Shown here: in pieces, positions 1 to 9,690 of the stretch
Layout of the letters: every line of letters begins with the position of its first letter
Numbering within the stretch: the first letter of the stretch is position 1
DNA from: a virus
DNA length: 27,788 bases
Direction: 5' to 3' (one strand)
Virus record (IMG/VR): IMGVR_UViG_3300020183_000370
Location: 1-27,788 of that record
Made by a program: the position numbers and the translations under genes
The notes under the pieces: generated by a model
Told to the model about the DNA's origin: nothing
Databases searched by the model: none
The model's input: only the letters and a program-made list of their open reading frames with translations

Positions 1-1723
1 CTTGATTGTTTATAATAATATTATTTGGTTGATTGGCGTTTTGAGTAATAGTGCGCGATCTATCATCTACAGGTTCAGCAGGCTGCGGTCTTTCCATAAA
101 AGACATCTCAGCATCCATGCTACGTCCTATTGCCGCACCCGTTCTATCTTGAGGTGAAAATCTTTGTATAATTTCCGGACTCACGGGGACTAGTCCTTGT
201 CGAGTTCTAATACTAATAGGTACATTGTCACTGTTTAGAGTAGCTCCTAGAACATTAAATCTAGGGATATTCATTGCCGCACCTACTTCGTCAATTCTAT
301 CTTTCAACTCGCCTTGAACCCTACCTGGTCCTTGCATATCTACATTTCTGGTAGCTGATCGCGCAGCTGCTGCCTCATTTGCTGCAGCCCGTTCTTCAGT
401 AGACTGTTGAGTACGCATGAAGTTCATTTCTTCATCCATACTCTGACCTATAGCGCGTTGAGCTCCAGCAGCTCGCTCGGTCTCACGTGCGCGCCTCTGT
501 TCTAGATAATCAGCGACTTCTTGTGGTACTCTAGGATTTCCAGCATTAGAAGTAGCAGCTTCTCTAGTAGCTGCATCAAATAACGCATTTGCTCTTTCGC
601 GTGCTGCTTTCTGCTCATCTGACTCACCAGACTCTGGCGCCTCTAGTAAATCTCTAGCGCTTTCTATTTGCTCAGTATTCATTTCATAACTGCCAGCTAG
701 ACCTCTAGCCGCGGCTTGACCTGGTGATCCACCAGGAGTAACACCCATATTCTCCCTTCCAGCTTGAGCTTGATTCAGCGCTTGCTGTTGTAACCTATCT
801 CTTTCTTCAGGCGTCATATTAATAGCTCTTATGATCGCAGCACCAATTGCACCTAAAGCGCCAGCACCTATAATTGCAGCAAGAGCTGGTCCACTAAACA
901 GCAACCTAGCACCTGTTAATAACGCTCTACCAGCTAGACCGGTAGGATTAAAAAGAGAAGAAATAGTACTAACAAGAGTTCTACCTAACAATGAACTGAG
1001 ATTACCCACAGTTGTAAGTAAACCTTCAATTCCAGTTCTTAATGTTGCAAATACTCCTAATAAAGCACTACCAGCTGCGACTAGAGATTCAAAAATACTT
1101 GAATCTTTTTTTCCATCTTTCTTTTCCTCTTTAGCGGTTTTTTCATCACCATATGGTAGTAACTTTTCAATTCTAAGAACTGTATCTTTTACAATACCAA
1201 TATCGCGTGATACGCGCATATTAGTATCTTTAACGTTGGATATATCTTTACTCATAGTAGATATATCTGCTTCTACTTTAGTATTAGTAGCTCTTCCGCG
1301 AAATAAGCCACCGCCAGCCCTTATAGTACCTGTCTGTTCTTCTTCGGGTACTAATGTATTATAGACTTGTCTTCTGGGAGCGTATCTAGCTGCATCAGCG
1401 TATATACCACTATTATAACCAAAAGCAGCACCTACAATGTTTCTCGCAGCAAAATTACCTAGAGCACGCGTACGCGACATAGTAGGAGTTTGTACTGTTT
1501 TATAACCAGTAGTAACAGCGCTTTGTGAAGTATCTTGACTTACCTCGGTTTCTTGAGGAGTAAACTCAGGTTCAAGTTTATCAACAACAGCCCCTATAAT
1601 AGAATCAGGCATATACCTACCACCAACAGGTTTACCGTTTTTATCGTACAATCCGGTCTTACCAGGAAAGGTAGGTCTTTCTTTAGGTAGAGGAATCTTT
1701 ATAGGGGAAGTTGTACTAGACAT
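1..1723 (-). CDS. Probable tail tape-measure / baseplate hub protein, partial (C-terminus beyond window)
   Basis: An open frame runs from the ATG at 1723-1721 to the left edge (about 574 codons, no stop), so only the N-terminal part is seen. It begins MSSTTSPIKIPLPKERPT. A helical stretch with heptad-like spacing follows (about residues 150-195, including VKDTNMRVSRDIGIVKDTVL). Next comes a Gly/Ala-rich hydrophobic segment at about residues 270-300 (ALAAIIGAGALGAIGAAII), then a long Ala/Glu/Arg/Gln-rich helical region. A 14-residue motif occurs twice (AIGQSMDEEMNFM and AIGRSMDAEMSFM). Hydrophobic patches inside a long helical protein, and the position directly after a tail-chaperone-like pair (gp26 plus the 54-residue ORF), suggest the tape-measure role that gp29 plays in T4. 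I see no clear sequence match to gp29, so the call rests on context and composition. The start overlaps the preceding stop as TAATG, implying coupled translation. A generic virion structural protein is the alternative. Confidence 0.55.
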   Translation of the reverse strand, partial: MSSTTSPIKIPLPKERPTFPGKTGLYDKNGKPVGGRYMPDSIIGAVVDKLEPEFTPQETEVSQDTSQSAVTTGYKTVQTPTMSRTRALGNFAARNIVGAAFGYNSGIYADAARYAPRRQVYNTLVPEEEQTGTIRAGGGLFRGRATNTKVEADISTMSKDISNVKDTNMRVSRDIGIVKDTVLRIEKLLPYGDEKTAKEEKKDGKKDSSIFESLVAAGSALLGVFATLRTGIEGLLTTVGNLSSLLGRTLVSTISSLFNPTGLAGRALLTGARLLFSGPALAAIIGAGALGAIGAAIIRAINMTPEERDRLQQQALNQAQAGRENMGVTPGGSPGQAAARGLAGSYEMNTEQIESARDLLEAPESGESDEQKAARERANALFDAATREAATSNAGNPRVPQEVADYLEQRRARETERAAGAQRAIGQSMDEEMNFMRTQQSTEERAAANEAAAARSATRNVDMQGPGRVQGELKDRIDEVGAAMNIPRFNVLGATLNSDNVPISIRTRQGLVPVSPEIIQRFSPQDRTGAAIGRSMDAEMSFMERPQPAEPVDDRSRTITQNANQPNNIIINNQ

Positions 1724-1887
1724 TATTGAGCTTCTTTTTTACTTTCCAAATAATTTAAAAGCATACCCATATAAATGTCACGTTCAAAAATAATAAGATC
1801 TTCTATTTCACTTATCGAATATTTATGATGCTGAGCCAAGGCAAAGATATTAGCATAATAATACTGTAATTCAGTATGACTCAGCAT
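1723..1887 (-). CDS. 54-residue tail-chaperone extension ORF (T-like), likely reached by -1 frameshift from gp26
   Basis: ATG at 1887-1885, TAA at 1725-1723, 54 codons. The protein starts MLSHTELQYYYANIFALAQ and ends LLNYLESKKEAQ. It is helical and acidic, with an ISEIEDLIIFERDIYMGML core. The core recalls, only loosely, the short second chaperone ORFs (lambda T, P2 E'), which often carry an L..L..WR/FE pattern. Its ATG lies 5 bases after the gp26 stop and is in the -1 frame relative to gp26. A run of eight T on the coding strand at the end of gp26 forms a T_TTT_TTT slippery heptamer that leads straight into this frame (junction ...EDFF-LI-MLSH). No good Shine-Dalgarno precedes the ATG, which favours frameshifting or coupling over independent initiation. 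The ORF sits immediately before the tape-measure gene, as lambda T sits before H. It is clearly open; its function is inferred. Confidence 0.7.
   Translation of the reverse strand: MLSHTELQYYYANIFALAQHHKYSISEIEDLIIFERDIYMGMLLNYLESKKEAQ
1820..1827 (-). promoter_or_regulatory. Possible T4-type late promoter (CATAAATA) upstream of the tape-measure gene
   Basis: The minus strand reads CATAAATA, one mismatch from the T4 late consensus TATAAATA. It lies inside the 54-residue ORF, about 97 bases before the tape-measure ATG at 1723. Initiation just downstream would give a leader for the tape-measure gene. One octamer in AT-rich DNA can be chance. Confidence 0.35.
1861..1877 (-). other. Short inverted repeat downstream of the slippery site
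   Basis: On the coding strand ATACTG-AATTA-CAGTAT is a perfect 6-bp stem with a 5-base loop. It begins 15 bases after the slippery heptamer. It is AT-rich and farther away than the usual 5-9 base spacing, so it is at best a weak stimulator of frameshifting and could be chance. Confidence 0.3.
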
Positions 1888-1889
1888 AA

Positions 1890-2594
1890 TTAAAAAAAAT
1901 CTTCTAACCGCGTCAATTCAATATTGACGTCCTCTTCCTTAGAGTTTTTATATGATGTAGTATACCTCATCGTAGGTAGAGCTTTAAAATAATCTTCTAA
2001 TTTTTTAAAACTCTCGATTGATAGATCCTCAATAAACTCTTCTATTTCATTACTGGTATAGTCACTCGCTTTATATACTTGTTCATTATCAAAGATATAC
2101 TCTATACTCTTAGATACTAGCTCGACGCCCACCTCTGCATTATCCATAGAATCAAGTTTAAGATCTTGCATCATACTTAAAGTAGGTATCTTCATCATGA
2201 GACCCATCGAATCTGAAAGCATAATTTTTGTATTAAAGTTATCAGGCACTGTAATCTTAATCTTATCAACATCTATAGTAACATCATGAGTTATTTTTCT
2301 GTCATACGTATCATAATATTTTAAATTAATCTCACTACTAATCGACTTTGCTCTTAGCATAACGAAAATATATTCAAACTCTACTAATGGTATTTCGAAA
2401 ATATCAATCTTACTATCAATAATACAATTACTAATAACAGCAGCAAGATTATTAATTATATCGGGCAACTCTTTACTCTCTTTTGCAATAAGAAGCATTT
2501 TCTCCTCACGCACTAGCATAGGCCTGCACTTAATAGTTTTTTTAGACAGAGGAAGAAAGATAGTAAATATAGGTTGTTGTATCTTAGGTAGCAT
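1890..2594 (-). CDS. gp26: Baseplate hub assembly protein gp26 (tail-assembly chaperone)
   Basis: This 234-residue protein belongs to the T4 gp26 baseplate hub assembly family (T4_baseplate; T4 gp26 is about 208 residues). Recognisable features are the N-terminus MLPKIQQPIFTIFLPLSKK followed by a basic RPMLVREEK element. A central part contains VEFEYIFVMLRAKSI and an acidic KYYDTYDRKI strand. The C-terminal domain has SIEYIFDNEQVYKASD, EFIEDLS, FKALPTM and the ending LTRLEDFF. It acts in the host cytoplasm during hub assembly and is not expected in the finished virion. The ATG at 2594 has a good AAAGGTGA ribosome site (2609-2602). A second strong site, GAGGAG, precedes an in-frame internal ATG at codon 33. 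The gene ends in a T8 run that can shift ribosomes into the following 54-residue ORF. Family assignment is firm; the chaperone-for-tape-measure role is inferred from gene order. Confidence 0.9.
   Translation of the reverse strand: MLPKIQQPIFTIFLPLSKKTIKCRPMLVREEKMLLIAKESKELPDIINNLAAVISNCIIDSKIDIFEIPLVEFEYIFVMLRAKSISSEINLKYYDTYDRKITHDVTIDVDKIKITVPDNFNTKIMLSDSMGLMMKIPTLSMMQDLKLDSMDNAEVGVELVSKSIEYIFDNEQVYKASDYTSNEIEEFIEDLSIESFKKLEDYFKALPTMRYTTSYKNSKEEDVNIELTRLEDFF
1893..1899 (-). promoter_or_regulatory. Putative programmed -1 frameshift site T_TTT_TTT in gp26
   Basis: On the coding strand the end of gp26 reads GAT TTT TTT TAA TTATG. The last T of GAT plus the two Phe codons make a homopolymeric slippery heptamer directly before the TAA stop at 1892-1890. 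A one-base backward slip continues TTA ATT ATG CTG, exactly in the frame of the 54-residue ORF. The fusion would be 234 + 2 + 54 = 290 residues. Transcriptional slippage adding one T to the T8 run would give the same product. Confidence 0.65.
2496..2507 (-). promoter_or_regulatory. Strong internal Shine-Dalgarno and ATG inside gp26 (codon 33)
   Basis: The coding strand reads GAGGAGAAAATG. GAGGAG (2507-2502) lies three bases before an in-frame ATG (2498-2496), which would start a 202-residue short form, MLLIAKESKELPD. The spacing is tight but workable. From memory, T4 gene 26 has been reported to make a shorter product from an internal start, so a conserved short isoform is possible. Confidence 0.4.
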
Positions 2595-2621: not shown

Positions 2622-3602
2622 TTATCCAGTGATATATCTCACCACCGAAGATGAGGTACGTACCGTATTTAATATATCAGCAATACCGGTAGGACGTCTC
2701 AATAAACTACTTAGTGTAGTGGCAGATGTACCGAATAATATAAGTGCATTTCCTAGAGATAGATTTCTGAGCGAGTTTCTATCAATAGTTGCAGGAGTTA
2801 GGTAATTTGAAGTCCATGATTTGTACGTAAAAGTAACGTCTAATATCGCGAGATCTGAACCTGCGCCCCATTTAAGATTTACATTGCCAATATTAGTTGG
2901 AAACGCTTCGTGTAATTTAACGTGAAGTACTCTAGCCGCGGCCGCGTCAAATACGTAGATATCTACTATAGTAGCGTATTCTTCCATATATGATACTTCA
3001 CCATAAAATGCACCCTCCGATGTTTTTGGGCCGGTAGCATCAGGATCAAAATTTACAATTTTTTGAAACCACTTAGTAAAAAAATTGAGCGCTACACTTG
3101 TATTATCCATGTAAAAATTCATTACGACATCGTCAAACTTGGCACGAATAGGTCTTGACTGTGTTACACCATAACCAAAATGTGGTACTGATGCAGTGGA
3201 AATTCCCATTCCCGGTAATTGAGTACCCGAGCATAAGAAGGGTAATACTTTACCAAAATCACTTACAAACTTTAAATTATTATTATTACTTCTACTATTT
3301 CTAAGCCACTTAGGAGGAGTAACATAGACCATAAAATGAGAAGGATTAACAAAACCTGATAATTTCGAAGCTACTGAAATAAAATTATTAATATTAAATC
3401 CTTCAGTTGAGCGTGGATTAGTTCCATTAAAACTGTTAATAACACCACCAAGTTGCGTAATTAACGCGCCTGCGACAGCGGCTTTATTTCTATTATTAGT
3501 AGTACTGTTAAGAGTAGCTTGCGCGGCGCTAAAAATGCCCGCAACCGTTCCGGCACGTGTTAAGTTCTGCGCGGATAAAATATCAGAAATAGTTTGACCC
3601 AT
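2622..3602 (-). CDS. gp54: Baseplate tail-tube initiator gp54
   Basis: At 326 residues it is close to T4 gp54 (about 320). In T4, gp54 is a tail-tube-fold protein that sits on gp48 at the top of the hub and nucleates tube polymerisation. The tube-like core runs from about residue 80 to 270: NPSHFMVYVTPPKWL, an LPFLCSGTQLPGMGISTASV strand pair, the MNFYMDNTSVALNFFTKWF segment (compare the Phe-x-Met-Asp...Trp segment of gp54/gp19), and a closing SDLAILDVTFTYKSWTSNY strand. Both ends are Asn/Ser/Thr-rich and probably flexible. The ATG at 3602 is preceded by GAGAAG and by a perfect late-promoter octamer at 3634-3627, giving it a likely independent start of transcription. The neighbour gp26 lies 27 bases downstream. 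A plain tail-tube gp19 paralogue is the alternative, less likely because of the length and the hub-gene context. Confidence 0.82.
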   Translation of the reverse strand: MGQTISDILSAQNLTRAGTVAGIFSAAQATLNSTTNNRNKAAVAGALITQLGGVINSFNGTNPRSTEGFNINNFISVASKLSGFVNPSHFMVYVTPPKWLRNSRSNNNNLKFVSDFGKVLPFLCSGTQLPGMGISTASVPHFGYGVTQSRPIRAKFDDVVMNFYMDNTSVALNFFTKWFQKIVNFDPDATGPKTSEGAFYGEVSYMEEYATIVDIYVFDAAAARVLHVKLHEAFPTNIGNVNLKWGAGSDLAILDVTFTYKSWTSNYLTPATIDRNSLRNLSLGNALILFGTSATTLSSLLRRPTGIADILNTVRTSSSVVRYITG

Positions 3603-5680: not shown

Positions 5681-7040
5681 TACATTAAACGTAACGCTTA
5701 ATAACCCCAAAGCAGTTACAATAGACAAAATAGAGCTAGAGAAATTTGACAGCTCTAAAAAAATAGAAGTAAAACTACTAACTGCTTCTTTAATGTTAAG
5801 CAGTAGCATCCATTTTCCTACTATTTTCGGTAGAATGGTTATAGGTGATACCAATAATCTATTAGATAACGAAACATTCTCTTTTACTGGTGAAGAGTTT
5901 GTTAATATTACTATTAAGCAACCCGCGCAAAGTAATACTATAGCGCTGTCAGATTTTTCTTATAAATTTGTTGTTAATAAAGTAGATACAGAATTACAAT
6001 CAGAAGATGCATCCGGTTCAGTATATAGAATCGAACTAGTTTCAGTCGATTTTTTTATTAATTCTGGTGCTATGAAGAGTAAAGGCTATTCTAATACTAA
6101 TACTAATATTGTAAAAAATATATTAGAAAATGAGTTAAAGACTGAAATACCACTAGTTAACTTTGAAGAGACAGTAGGGCCCACACAATATGCTTTTGTA
6201 GAATCAAAACCATTTGAAAAAATCAATATGGTAACAAATCAAACTTTTTCTACTAGAGACTCAATTACTTCAACCTTTCTCTTTTATGAAAATTTTAAAG
6301 GTTATAATTTTGAATCATATGAAAATATAATTCAACGTAACTTAGAATCTAAAACTACACCTCGTAAATTCAGTTATAAAATGACCGTTAGTAATGATAG
6401 AGAAGCATATAACTCTATATTAAGTTATCTTAAACCCTATAGATTTAATATGCATTCTAGACTTGCCCATGGCTTTTACTCTACAAAAGTAATATCCTAT
6501 AATCTGTTTGAAAAAAGAGCTGACGAACGTACTATTACTTTACCAAACGAAATAAAAGAAAATAGAAATAAATTAAATCCCAATCAAGACAGTAGAAGTA
6601 CTAACGCGTTTGTTGATAAAGTGAAAGAATTAGGCAGCCTAACTTATCTAATACCCTACTCTCCTCCTAGTGCATATAGAGGTCCTGAGAGAGTAGATAA
6701 CACTAACAGTGCTCTACTATACTCAAGTCCTTTTTCTATTTTACTAGATGAAAATACCATAGCAGTGCGCGTTAACGGTATATTAGATCAAAACGTAGGT
6801 GATTTAATAGAGCTTGAATTTCCAGATAGTTTAGCTACCACAAACGTACTAAAAAATATTGATAGAGATATATCGGGTAGATATATTATTAGCGAATTAA
6901 CACATGAAATACAAAACACAGGTGGTGCGTTTGAAATTGAATCAAACGTTACATGTATTAAGGAAAGTACTTTACGTAAAACTACATACTATAATTCTCA
7001 ATCAACTATCAATACTATAAAGATAAAAGCTTTAGAATGA
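5673..7040 (+). CDS. gp27: Baseplate hub protein, gp27-like
   Basis: This 455-residue protein (T4 gp27 is 391) is placed directly before the gp5 equivalent, as expected for the hub trimer that holds the spike and has the tube-like ring fold. Supporting sequence: an N-terminal half with repeated beta strands (FPTIFGRMVIGDTNNLLDN, then a FTGEEFVNITIKQP strand, YKFVVNKVDTELQSED, YRIELVSVDFFI), a helix GYSNTNTNIVKNILENELK, and the hub motif KPFEKINMVTNQTFS, followed by STFLFYENFKGYNFES. The C-terminal part has NGILDQNVGDLIELEFP and RYIISELTHEIQN, typical of the gpD/gp27 OB-like region. The start overlaps the gp53 end by 8 bases, and the stop overlaps the next start as ATGA. Sequence identity to T4 gp27 is low; the call uses motif order and position. 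Confidence 0.82.
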   Translation: MSSTLNVTLNNPKAVTIDKIELEKFDSSKKIEVKLLTASLMLSSSIHFPTIFGRMVIGDTNNLLDNETFSFTGEEFVNITIKQPAQSNTIALSDFSYKFVVNKVDTELQSEDASGSVYRIELVSVDFFINSGAMKSKGYSNTNTNIVKNILENELKTEIPLVNFEETVGPTQYAFVESKPFEKINMVTNQTFSTRDSITSTFLFYENFKGYNFESYENIIQRNLESKTTPRKFSYKMTVSNDREAYNSILSYLKPYRFNMHSRLAHGFYSTKVISYNLFEKRADERTITLPNEIKENRNKLNPNQDSRSTNAFVDKVKELGSLTYLIPYSPPSAYRGPERVDNTNSALLYSSPFSILLDENTIAVRVNGILDQNVGDLIELEFPDSLATTNVLKNIDRDISGRYIISELTHEIQNTGGAFEIESNVTCIKESTLRKTTYYNSQSTINTIKIKALE

Positions 7041-7960
7041 TAACGAAATTTATGGGCACTCAGGGATTTACCTGGTTTGTAGGAAGAGTAGAAGATAATA
7101 ACGACCCCGACAAATTAGGAAGGGTAAAAGTGAGATGCTATGGCTACCATACTTCTGATATGAGTGACTTACCCACTCAAATTTTACCTTGGGCTACAGT
7201 ACTACAACCTACTAATAGCGCCGGCACAAGAGGGGGAGGTGTCGCCCCTGTCGGTATTCAAATTGGTACAGAGGTAGTAGGTTTTTTTGCTGACAACTCA
7301 ACCGCGCAATACCCTATAATATTTGGGGTATTAGGTGGAGTAAATAATACAGGTCCACAAGGCACATTAACTGATTCTGTATTAAGAGAAAGACTAAGTA
7401 ATCCAGATCCTGGTGAGGTAGCTGCTACTTCAGTAACACCTGGCCAGCTTGGATTACTCACACCATCTCAATTTCAAGAATTAAAATCTACTCTCGGAAA
7501 AAGAGAATCAAATAGTAATTACTCAGCTGAAAATACTCTGGGGTATATTGGTAAATACCAGTTTGGTATTCCTGCATTGTATGAAGGTGGTTATGTTAAT
7601 ATTAGATCAGCGCCGGGAGGAAAGCAAAAAGAATACCTAAACAACCCCTCAAATTGGACTGGTAAGAACGGTATTAGTAATAAACAAGCTTGGTTTAATA
7701 ACGGATCTGAGCAAGAGAGAGCATGTGACGAGTTTACTCAAAGAACATACTCACGGCTCATAAGAAATGGCACGTTGAATCCATCATCGCCGCCTAGAGT
7801 TGTTTCTGGTTATCTTGCCGTGGCTCACTTATTAGGTCCAACTGGAGCACTTAGATATAAGACAACAGGCTCTGGCGCTGATGCATATGGCGCTTCAGGT
7901 AATCAATACTTTAGAATTGGTTATAATTGTATAACAGATGATCAACCCAAGGTAACGTAA
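7037..7960 (+). CDS. gp5: Baseplate spike protein, gp5 N-terminal part: OB fold plus lysozyme-like domain
   Basis: 307 residues. Residues 1-105 form the gp5/VgrG OB-fold domain: FTWFVGRVEDNNDPDKLGRV, VRCYGYHTSD, LPWATVLQP, IGTEVVGFFADN and YPIIFGVLGG. After a linker, residues 145-300 form a peptidoglycan-hydrolase domain of the lysozyme / lytic transglycosylase type. It has LGKRESNSNY with candidate catalytic Glu157, then LGYIGKYQFGIPAL and a WTGKNGIS element. The fold is common in phage tail proteins but is not the T4 gp5 lysozyme sequence. It would open the cell wall during injection. The protein stops before any beta-helix spike, which is encoded by the next gene through a TAATG junction. 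T4 makes the same two pieces by cutting one gp5 chain. Family is clear; the bond cleaved is inferred. Confidence 0.85.
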   Translation: MITKFMGTQGFTWFVGRVEDNNDPDKLGRVKVRCYGYHTSDMSDLPTQILPWATVLQPTNSAGTRGGGVAPVGIQIGTEVVGFFADNSTAQYPIIFGVLGGVNNTGPQGTLTDSVLRERLSNPDPGEVAATSVTPGQLGLLTPSQFQELKSTLGKRESNSNYSAENTLGYIGKYQFGIPALYEGGYVNIRSAPGGKQKEYLNNPSNWTGKNGISNKQAWFNNGSEQERACDEFTQRTYSRLIRNGTLNPSSPPRVVSGYLAVAHLLGPTGALRYKTTGSGADAYGASGNQYFRIGYNCITDDQPKVT

Positions 7961-9690
7961 TGGCCATAAATACCAGAGATCAAACAGCTCAAGAACTACC
8001 CGCTTCTTCTTTAAGCATTGGGATTACTGACGTTGAAGGTACAGCAGCGCAGAATCTCTATAACTATGAACAAGATACAAATAGATTAGCTCGGGGAGTA
8101 GCTGCTGGTACTGTTGTGGATGTAAAAGACTCCACAAGACTCAAAAACATACCTGTTGCTTCATCAATAGATACATGGGATGAGCCTTTATCACCATTCG
8201 GTGCTTCATATCCCCATAATAATGTATATCAAACTCCAAATGGATTAATACAAGAATTTGACGATACTCCAAATAATGAAAGATATCACCGTTATCATCC
8301 TTCAGGTTCTTATACTGAGACGGACGTAAACGGTACTGAAGTTCGTAAAATTGTAGGTGATAATTTCTATATTATAGAAAATAACGGATATATTTTTATA
8401 GGCGGCGAAGCAAATATTACTATTTCTGGTAAATGTAATATTATGGTTATGAATGATTGTAATCTTCAAGTCGATGGCAAACTAGACGCCGTTATTAAGA
8501 ACGATATTAATCTAACCTCATCGGGTAGTTTTAATTTAAACGTCAAAGAGACTTTTAAAGTAAAAGCTGATAGTATGATTGTTGAGACTACTAAGTACAA
8601 TCACAAAAATATCGGTGCAGCAGTTATTGAAACCGATACATTGGATACTAAAGTTGTGGGAGCACATACCGCAAAAGCTTCAACATATGGTTTAAAAACA
8701 GACGGGATCACTACTTTTAATGCAGGTAGTGAATTTCAAGTTACATCAAGTAAGTTAGCTGTACAGACAGATTTACATGTTAAGAATAGTGTTTTTGTCG
8801 AATCTGAAGTACATAGTCCTCTTTTCAAAGGAGTAGCTCGCTATGCTCAATATGCTGTAACCGCTGGTAGCGCACCGGAAGGCTCTGCAGTAGCTACAAA
8901 CCCAAATAGAACTGCACCTACTATTAATAATGTAGTAGTTGCCGACCCTACCGCTGTATTGAGCACAGGGTTTATTATACCTGCGAATAGAGCAAATCCG
9001 GATCGTACCGGTAATCCTCCTATCGGTCAAAATACTAATAGAATTATTCGTGCTGGTGTTGAGAATGACGGCGGTACAAGATCTTCAACTCAACTGTATC
9101 CTGGCTACAATTCAAGCACACCTTATGTACCTCAGAGTAGTTTACAAGCACCACAAGGTATAGCGAGAGTTGCTCCCGACAATGTAACAAGTACATTCAC
9201 CGACCAAACTAATTTTACTGGCGAAGAGCAACTTTCAAAATACGCTAAACTAAAAGATTTATCTACAAATGCGATTTTTGGACATAGAGTACGGGCTCAA
9301 GGCGGATTAACTGAGAGTCAAATTGTGGTCAACCTACAAAACGTTGCTGTTAATGTAATCGATAGATTAGCAGAAAAATACGGAAGAGGTTCTTTTATAA
9401 TTACCTCAGGATTTAGACCAGAAGCTCAAGCAAGAGGCGGGCGGGGACTTAGTCAACACGGTTTAGGTCAAGCAGTCGATATTCAATTTCCTACACTCGC
9501 TACTAGCGAGTATGCAGCCAGAGCTCAAGAGCTATTAAGTGTAGTATCCTTTGATCAATTACTTCTAGAATACCAATCAACAGGTTCAGGTAGGCCTTGG
9601 ATTCATATTTCATTTACCACTCAGGGAAATAGGCGTCAGTATTTTACCATGTTTAATCATCAACGAACAACACCGATACAGACAGCATAA
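7960..9690 (+). CDS. Spike beta-helix protein (gp5 C-terminal part) with C-terminal peptidase M15 domain
   Basis: 576 residues. Residues 84-225 match the gp5C needle: YPHNNVYQTPNGLIQEFDDT, RYHRYHPSGSYTETDVNG, KIVGDNFYII, then short regular strands (ANITISGKCNIMVMNDCNLQ) of a triple-stranded beta helix. Residues 290-420 are a Pro/Asn/Thr-rich linker. Residues 425-570 form a D-Ala-D-Ala carboxypeptidase/endopeptidase domain of the peptidase M15_3 type. It has ITSGFRPEAQ, SQHGLGQAVDIQF (His500 and Asp507), FDQLLLEY (Glu537) and WIHISF (His549), so the zinc ligands and catalytic acid are all present. The protein would form the membrane-facing spike and cut the peptide part of peptidoglycan. A CATAAATA octamer lies just after the start codon (7965-7972), probably by chance. 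The start overlaps the preceding stop by one base. Confidence 0.87.
   Translation: MAINTRDQTAQELPASSLSIGITDVEGTAAQNLYNYEQDTNRLARGVAAGTVVDVKDSTRLKNIPVASSIDTWDEPLSPFGASYPHNNVYQTPNGLIQEFDDTPNNERYHRYHPSGSYTETDVNGTEVRKIVGDNFYIIENNGYIFIGGEANITISGKCNIMVMNDCNLQVDGKLDAVIKNDINLTSSGSFNLNVKETFKVKADSMIVETTKYNHKNIGAAVIETDTLDTKVVGAHTAKASTYGLKTDGITTFNAGSEFQVTSSKLAVQTDLHVKNSVFVESEVHSPLFKGVARYAQYAVTAGSAPEGSAVATNPNRTAPTINNVVVADPTAVLSTGFIIPANRANPDRTGNPPIGQNTNRIIRAGVENDGGTRSSTQLYPGYNSSTPYVPQSSLQAPQGIARVAPDNVTSTFTDQTNFTGEEQLSKYAKLKDLSTNAIFGHRVRAQGGLTESQIVVNLQNVAVNVIDRLAEKYGRGSFIITSGFRPEAQARGGRGLSQHGLGQAVDIQFPTLATSEYAARAQELLSVVSFDQLLLEYQSTGSGRPWIHISFTTQGNRRQYFTMFNHQRTTPIQTA

Follow-up and report, generated by a model that had tools for sequence, protein, structure and literature searches.

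Frameshifted tail assembly chaperones are known from phages lambda (G/GT) and P2 (E/E') (Xu, Hendrix and Duda 2004). The roles of the short and long chaperones of lambda are described in a review that considers the G-T frameshift conserved "except T4" (PMC5009743). For T4-like phages, Vladimirov, Gautam and Davidson 2022 (Virology 566:9-15) is credited in the papers that cite it with short and fused-long chaperones, with a two-gene solution and with poly-T slippery sites in TAC-N genes (PMC10274946, PMC12846349). The passages of PMC12846349 consulted here describe a conserved -1 frameshift in Vandenendeviridae and Andersonviridae, in which the short chaperone gene ends in a poly-T signal; these are other families with another site (GTTTTT), and the same passages report no RNA structure. 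Neither the frameshift principle nor its occurrence in T4-like phages is new, the latter being known to us through these citing papers, and the statement of the first-pass annotation of our locus that T4-like phages are not usually described in this way did not hold. As far as the citing papers convey the content of Vladimirov et al. 2022, what is new here is the scale of conservation, the missing start codons and a covarying stem.

The DNA examined, hereafter the window, is a virus record 27,788 bases long that carries T4-like tail genes. The locus lies on its minus strand in the order tail tube gene, gp26, 54-codon ORF and large gene (Table 1). In profile searches gp26 matched PF12322 T4_baseplate (E 4e-46, 157.9 bits for a curated cut-off of 24.5, residues 11-234) and phrog_150 baseplate hub (E 9.5e-48), and the 54-codon ORF matched phrog_634, the baseplate hub assembly catalyst gp51 (E 8.9e-19). 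The tail tube gene additionally matched PF06841 gp19 with an E-value of 3.6e-5, under that family's cut-off. A full-length T4-type gp51 (about 249 residues, with its own gene) is absent from the locus, which holds only the 54-codon ORF; the N-terminal part of gp51 would come from gp26 through a slip.

Table 1. Features of the gp26 locus, ordered from upstream to downstream on the minus strand.
Feature	Position	Strand	Basis or remark
Tail tube gene, directly upstream of gp26	2622..3602	-	phrog_45 tail tube, E 2e-31
gp26 (234 aa, zero frame), short tail assembly chaperone of the G-like kind	1890..2594	-	PF12322, phrog_150
Slippery heptamer T_TTT_TTT	1893..1899	-	read directly; inside a run of eight T, 1892-1899
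gp26 stop codon TAA	1890-1892	-	
Predicted -1 extension past the slip: L-I, then 54-codon gp51 domain (T-like C-terminal domain)	1723..1893	-	
54-codon ORF	1723-1887	-	phrog_634
ATG of the 54-codon ORF	1885..1887	-	GCG in close relative L004
Conserved 9-bp stem, 5' arm	1877..1885 (extendable to 11 bp, 1877-1887)	-	fold, RNAalifold, covariation
6-bp hairpin ATACTG-aatta-CAGTAT	1861..1877 (1872-1877 with 1861-1866)	-	inside the loop of the conserved stem
Conserved 9-bp stem, 3' arm	1830..1838 (extendable to 1828-1838)	-	fold, RNAalifold, covariation
Stop codon TAA of the -1 extension	1723-1725	-	
Large gene, directly downstream, cut by the window end	1..1723	-	TAATG overlap with the 54-codon ORF

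The end of gp26 (1901-1890) reads GAT (1901-1899), TTT (1898-1896), TTT (1895-1893) and TAA (1892-1890), giving T_TTT_TTT. The -1 frame runs on through TTA ATT ATG CTG AGT CAT (FF-LI-MLSH), stop-free down to 1723, and the predicted fusion has 234 + 2 + 54 = 290 residues. The slippery end, the open -1 path and the fusion length had all been read in this way by the first-pass annotation and are confirmed. Its remark that the 54-residue ORF has no good ribosome site also stands, none of AGGA, GGAG or GAGG being found ahead of the ATG, where the sequence is GGTTAGAAGATTTTTTTTAATT.

We propose, with a probability of about 0.93, that gp26 and the 54-codon ORF are a single gene read through a programmed -1 ribosomal frameshift. 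Sequence comparison establishes the slippery site, the reading frame, the conservation of the domain, the lack of start codons in most relatives and the covariation of the stem; the slip, its efficiency and the roles in assembly are inferred. Most ribosomes would terminate at the TAA and produce the 234-residue gp26. A minority would slip back one base on T_TTT_TTT, with two Phe tRNAs re-pairing on TTT TTT, and would bypass the stop to yield the 290-residue gp26-gp51 fusion. Both tRNAs, one in the P site and one in the A site, would shift at once, with the ribosome held in place by the stem; in this phage the TAA directly follows the heptamer, and the same protein would result if the P-site tRNA slipped while TAA occupied the A site.

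The AlphaFold model of gp26 (pLDDT 94) matched gp26-family proteins in a viral structure library, with E-values down to 3e-18. Its top match in the PDB was the HK97 chaperone gp13 (2ob9), which was not significant (E 0.87, probability 0.38), and a sequence search of the PDB gave no credible match. The -1 domain was modelled as a three-helix hairpin (pLDDT 87); its resemblances, all with weak E-values, were to small proteins and to portions of T4-like baseplate proteins.

The TAATG overlap between the 54-codon ORF and the large gene is as first annotated, and the tape-measure identity given to that gene found no counterpart in the searches: tblastn against 50,697 phage records returned no match, profile searches gave no significant family match, and no homology to the tape measures of HTVC008M and S-RSM4 was detected. 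A tape measure is suggested by where the gene lies, by its length and by the TAATG overlap only, and the gene is an orphan at that position. Elsewhere in the window, a gp5-like hub lysozyme is apparently split into two overlapping genes, 7037-7960, which matches the N-terminal OB part of phrog_430, and 7960-9690, which matches phrog_430 positions 293-652 and an endolysin family.

Slippery site and -1 frame across relatives

The first-pass annotation had suggested looking for the slippery run and a -1 ORF in related phages, and had named relatives without either as a refutation; the outcome was the opposite. Relatives were picked by gp26 similarity alone and not by the presence of a slippery site: three close ones, 80 fetched with A1, 80 with A2 and seven with the gp26 of Aeromonas phage 65.2, together with named phages. 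Removal of near-identical relatives left 154 non-redundant ones, and all of these keep both elements. The heptamer on the terminal Phe-Phe codons of gp26 is T_TTT_TTY in 154 of 154 (T_TTT_TTT in 56, T_TTT_TTC in 98), whereas 35 of the 419 Phe-Phe pairs elsewhere in these loci fit this pattern; the 154 loci are related by descent and their counts are not independent draws, but the contrast with the control is still very large. In these gp26 genes, TTT accounts for 74% of Phe codons, and 79% of NNY codons end in T. The last base of the heptamer is free between T and C, which fits the X_XXY_YYZ prediction.

As in frameshifted G/GT-type chaperones, the -1 ORF is open from the slip site, both here and in the 154 relatives. 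The gp51 domain lies in the -1 frame behind the heptamer in every one of them (it is cut by the contig end in L148), and in untruncated loci the frame is open for 56-71 codons, with the same domain in all. This conservation spans Kyanoviridae-like phages, several Straboviridae genera, and Sinorhizobium and Stenotrophomonas phages. In 11 relatives (L111, L113, L116, L125, L126, L128, L131, L137, L150, L166 and L084) the zero-frame stop lies 24 nt, or eight codons, beyond the heptamer, so that the T run goes with the change of frame and not with termination. The extra gp26 codons of this subgroup (e.g. FFVSPSATTA) run over the -1 gp51 frame. The I, V or L at position two of the extension was discarded as evidence, since in most relatives the zero-frame stop leaves no other choice (the codon is NTA or NTG).

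Variant sites were observed in two phages: T_TTT_TTA in Rhizobium phage RHph_I1_18 (L014:3180-3230), about eight codons ahead of where gp26 stops, and T_TTT_TTG in RHph_N34 (L019:3170-3190). The -1 products of both still align with the family. In Ackermannviridae (L193-L211, L016, L018, L232) gp26 ends with GAR ATT TTC ATY TAA, in Bue1 with CAG ATT TTC ATT TAA, and in Vibrio phage D531 (L012) with TCA CTT TTC AAG TAA. Ackermannviridae and D531 have a gp51-like -1 domain, mostly without ATG, and no canonical slippery heptamer; the -1 codon overlapping the gp26 stop in Ackermannviridae is ATT, ATA or ATG. A one-tRNA slip on T_TTC, or re-initiation on an AUN codon, is possible in that family.

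RNA structure downstream of the heptamer

A perfect 6-bp stem 15 bases downstream had been singled out by the first-pass annotation. The hairpin exists, its stem separated from the heptamer by exactly 15 bases, and is found in this phage, L002 and L003. As the conserved stimulator it was rejected: it does not belong to the consensus structure computed by RNAalifold for 33 relatives, which features a 9-bp stem instead (Table 1).

The best fold in this phage is a 10-11 bp stem enclosing the 6-bp hairpin (z -3.34), and RNAalifold on 33 gap-free relatives of this phage's type placed the 9-bp stem at the same position. The stem begins 5-7 nt past the heptamer and closes a loop of about 38 bases with variable inner hairpins. 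When it was tested as 11 pairs in the 33 relatives, 89.5% of cells were paired and five of the 11 pairs had changes on both sides. None of 500 shuffles reached any of the five measures used, and pairing fell to 22-41% when the partner arm was slid by 1 to 3 columns. The 60 bases past the heptamer fold more stably than shuffled sequences, with an excess above that of five control windows. With the -1 protein fixed and synonymous codons shuffled, the excess stability was limited to codons 1-18 (z -2.88 for this phage), the mean z being -1.72 at codons 3-14 and about 0 to -0.4 further on.

The relatives with TTTTTTC favour a different, shorter hairpin than this phage's type, and RNAalifold found no single consensus hairpin among them. 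Pairing of +9..15 with +27..33 nevertheless exceeds that of arm shuffles (z 7.6; matched by 0 of 500 shuffles in paired cells and likewise in covariation score). Its register seems variable, a slide by -2 columns scoring nearly as well.

The conserved 9- to 11-bp stem probably stalls the ribosome on the slippery site, and offers a concrete element for mutation. Literature searches, in which Vladimirov et al. 2022 was represented by the papers citing it, returned no mention of a downstream RNA stem.

Start codons and other routes to gp51

No ATG, GTG or TTG is present within the first six -1 codons in 99 of the 154 relatives, so gp51 cannot start there by itself at the usual codons. A usable start at the conserved gp51 N-terminus is absent in S-RSM4, ACG-2014e, Melnitz, HTVC008M and Aeromonas 65.2. 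Where this phage has ATG, most relatives encode A, S, G or C, and this ATG is probably an internal Met codon and not a start. A Shine-Dalgarno 4-mer (AGGA, GGAG or GAGG) precedes the gp51 ATG in 0 of 47 ATG-bearing relatives, compared with 95 of 149 gp26 starts. Public records (NC_013085, NC_026928, MZ577097, NC_020484, KY290955) either annotate gp51 from an internal codon past the conserved first segment or omit it, apparently because there is no start codon. On the frameshift reading, many phage genomes carry a wrong gp51 annotation or none. Judged by sequence, gp51 is not an independent gene in the relatives.

These data bear on termination-reinitiation, in which ribosomes would stop at the gp26 TAA and resume translation from the ATG that follows two bases later (TAATTATG) to make a separate 54-residue gp51. 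The ATG of this phage makes this formally possible, at a stop-to-start distance that suits translational coupling, and databases list gp51 as a separate gene for many phages. However, most relatives have no start near the beginning of the domain, close relative L004 having GCG, annotators were forced to internal starts or omission, and no ATG-bearing relative has a Shine-Dalgarno motif. Such a route also requires neither T_TTT_TTY nor a spacing-dependent stem, and we consider it improbable.

Transcriptional slippage would have RNA polymerase add or drop bases on the T8 run, joining the two frames in a fraction of the mRNA with no slip of the ribosome. Runs of eight T are within the range of polymerase slippage, and such a run occurs here and in the close relatives L002-L004. 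The 98 relatives with only six T followed by C have a poor polymerase site but a standard ribosomal one, and a conserved stem at ribosome spacing would play no role, which leaves slippage by the polymerase a still slimmer chance than re-initiation; it could add to the ribosomal slip in T8 members. The notion that an AT-rich genome merely happens to place a T-rich gene end next to a small ORF of no relation, to which further T_TTT_TTN sites in genes of the window might lend some credit, is refuted by the conserved domain and the invariant heptamer across Kyanoviridae-like phages, several Straboviridae genera, and Sinorhizobium and Stenotrophomonas phages, and its probability is negligible.

Comparison with T4, lambda and P2

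A frameshifted gp26 can be set beside the genes of T4 itself. T4 gp26 is of the same family as the gp26 described here (PF12322, phrog_150), and the 54-codon -1 ORF corresponds to the C-terminal domain of T4 gp51 (phrog_634). In T4 gp51, PF12322 matches residues 1-201 and phrog_634 residues 147-246 (E 1.2e-23); from this domain content, the protein is a permanent gp26-gp51-type fusion. T4 encodes gp26 (208 aa) on one strand and the fused gp51 (249 aa), as a gene of its own, on the other, with no frameshift at this point: T4 gp26 is the short form and ends with GAG TTC TTT GAG TTA CTA TAA, without a slippery run. Phage 44RR has the same two-gene gp26/gp51 layout. Both T_TTT_TTC and the -1 ORF are retained in other Straboviridae, namely Vibrio phi-ST2, Aeromonas phiAS5 and Aeromonas 65.2. 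On the simplest reading, the frameshift would be ancestral, and duplication and fusion would have replaced it in the T4 line. We see about even odds for the wider proposal that this clade uses an undescribed long-range-stem stimulator and that T4 gp26 and gp51 arose by duplication of a frameshifted ancestor, the slip giving way to a permanent fusion.

The exception made for T4 in the review (PMC5009743) fits T4 itself, not T4-like phages in general. Sullivan et al. 2010 (PMC3037559) reported that cyanophage and marine vibriophage gp51 lacks the first 200 residues, for which the frameshift supplies an explanation.

The order tail tube-gp26-gp51-large gene would parallel V-G-GT-H in lambda if the large gene is a tape measure, and fits the earlier suggestion that gp26 is a G-equivalent. 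The accompanying suggestion, that this phage keeps the frameshift, is strongly supported by the relatives. The slippery sequence of lambda is GGGAAAG, whereas the heptamer here is T_TTT_TTY. If the system works as lambda G/GT does, gp26 would form a coat on the tape measure protein, a few copies of the fusion would recruit the tail tube protein, and both forms would leave before the tail is completed. Judged by sequence comparison, the gp26 and gp51 "hub assembly" proteins of abundant marine myoviruses behave as a single frameshifted tail chaperone gene, which gives a simple account of the two-gene layout of T4 and aligns the T4 supergroup with lambda and P2.
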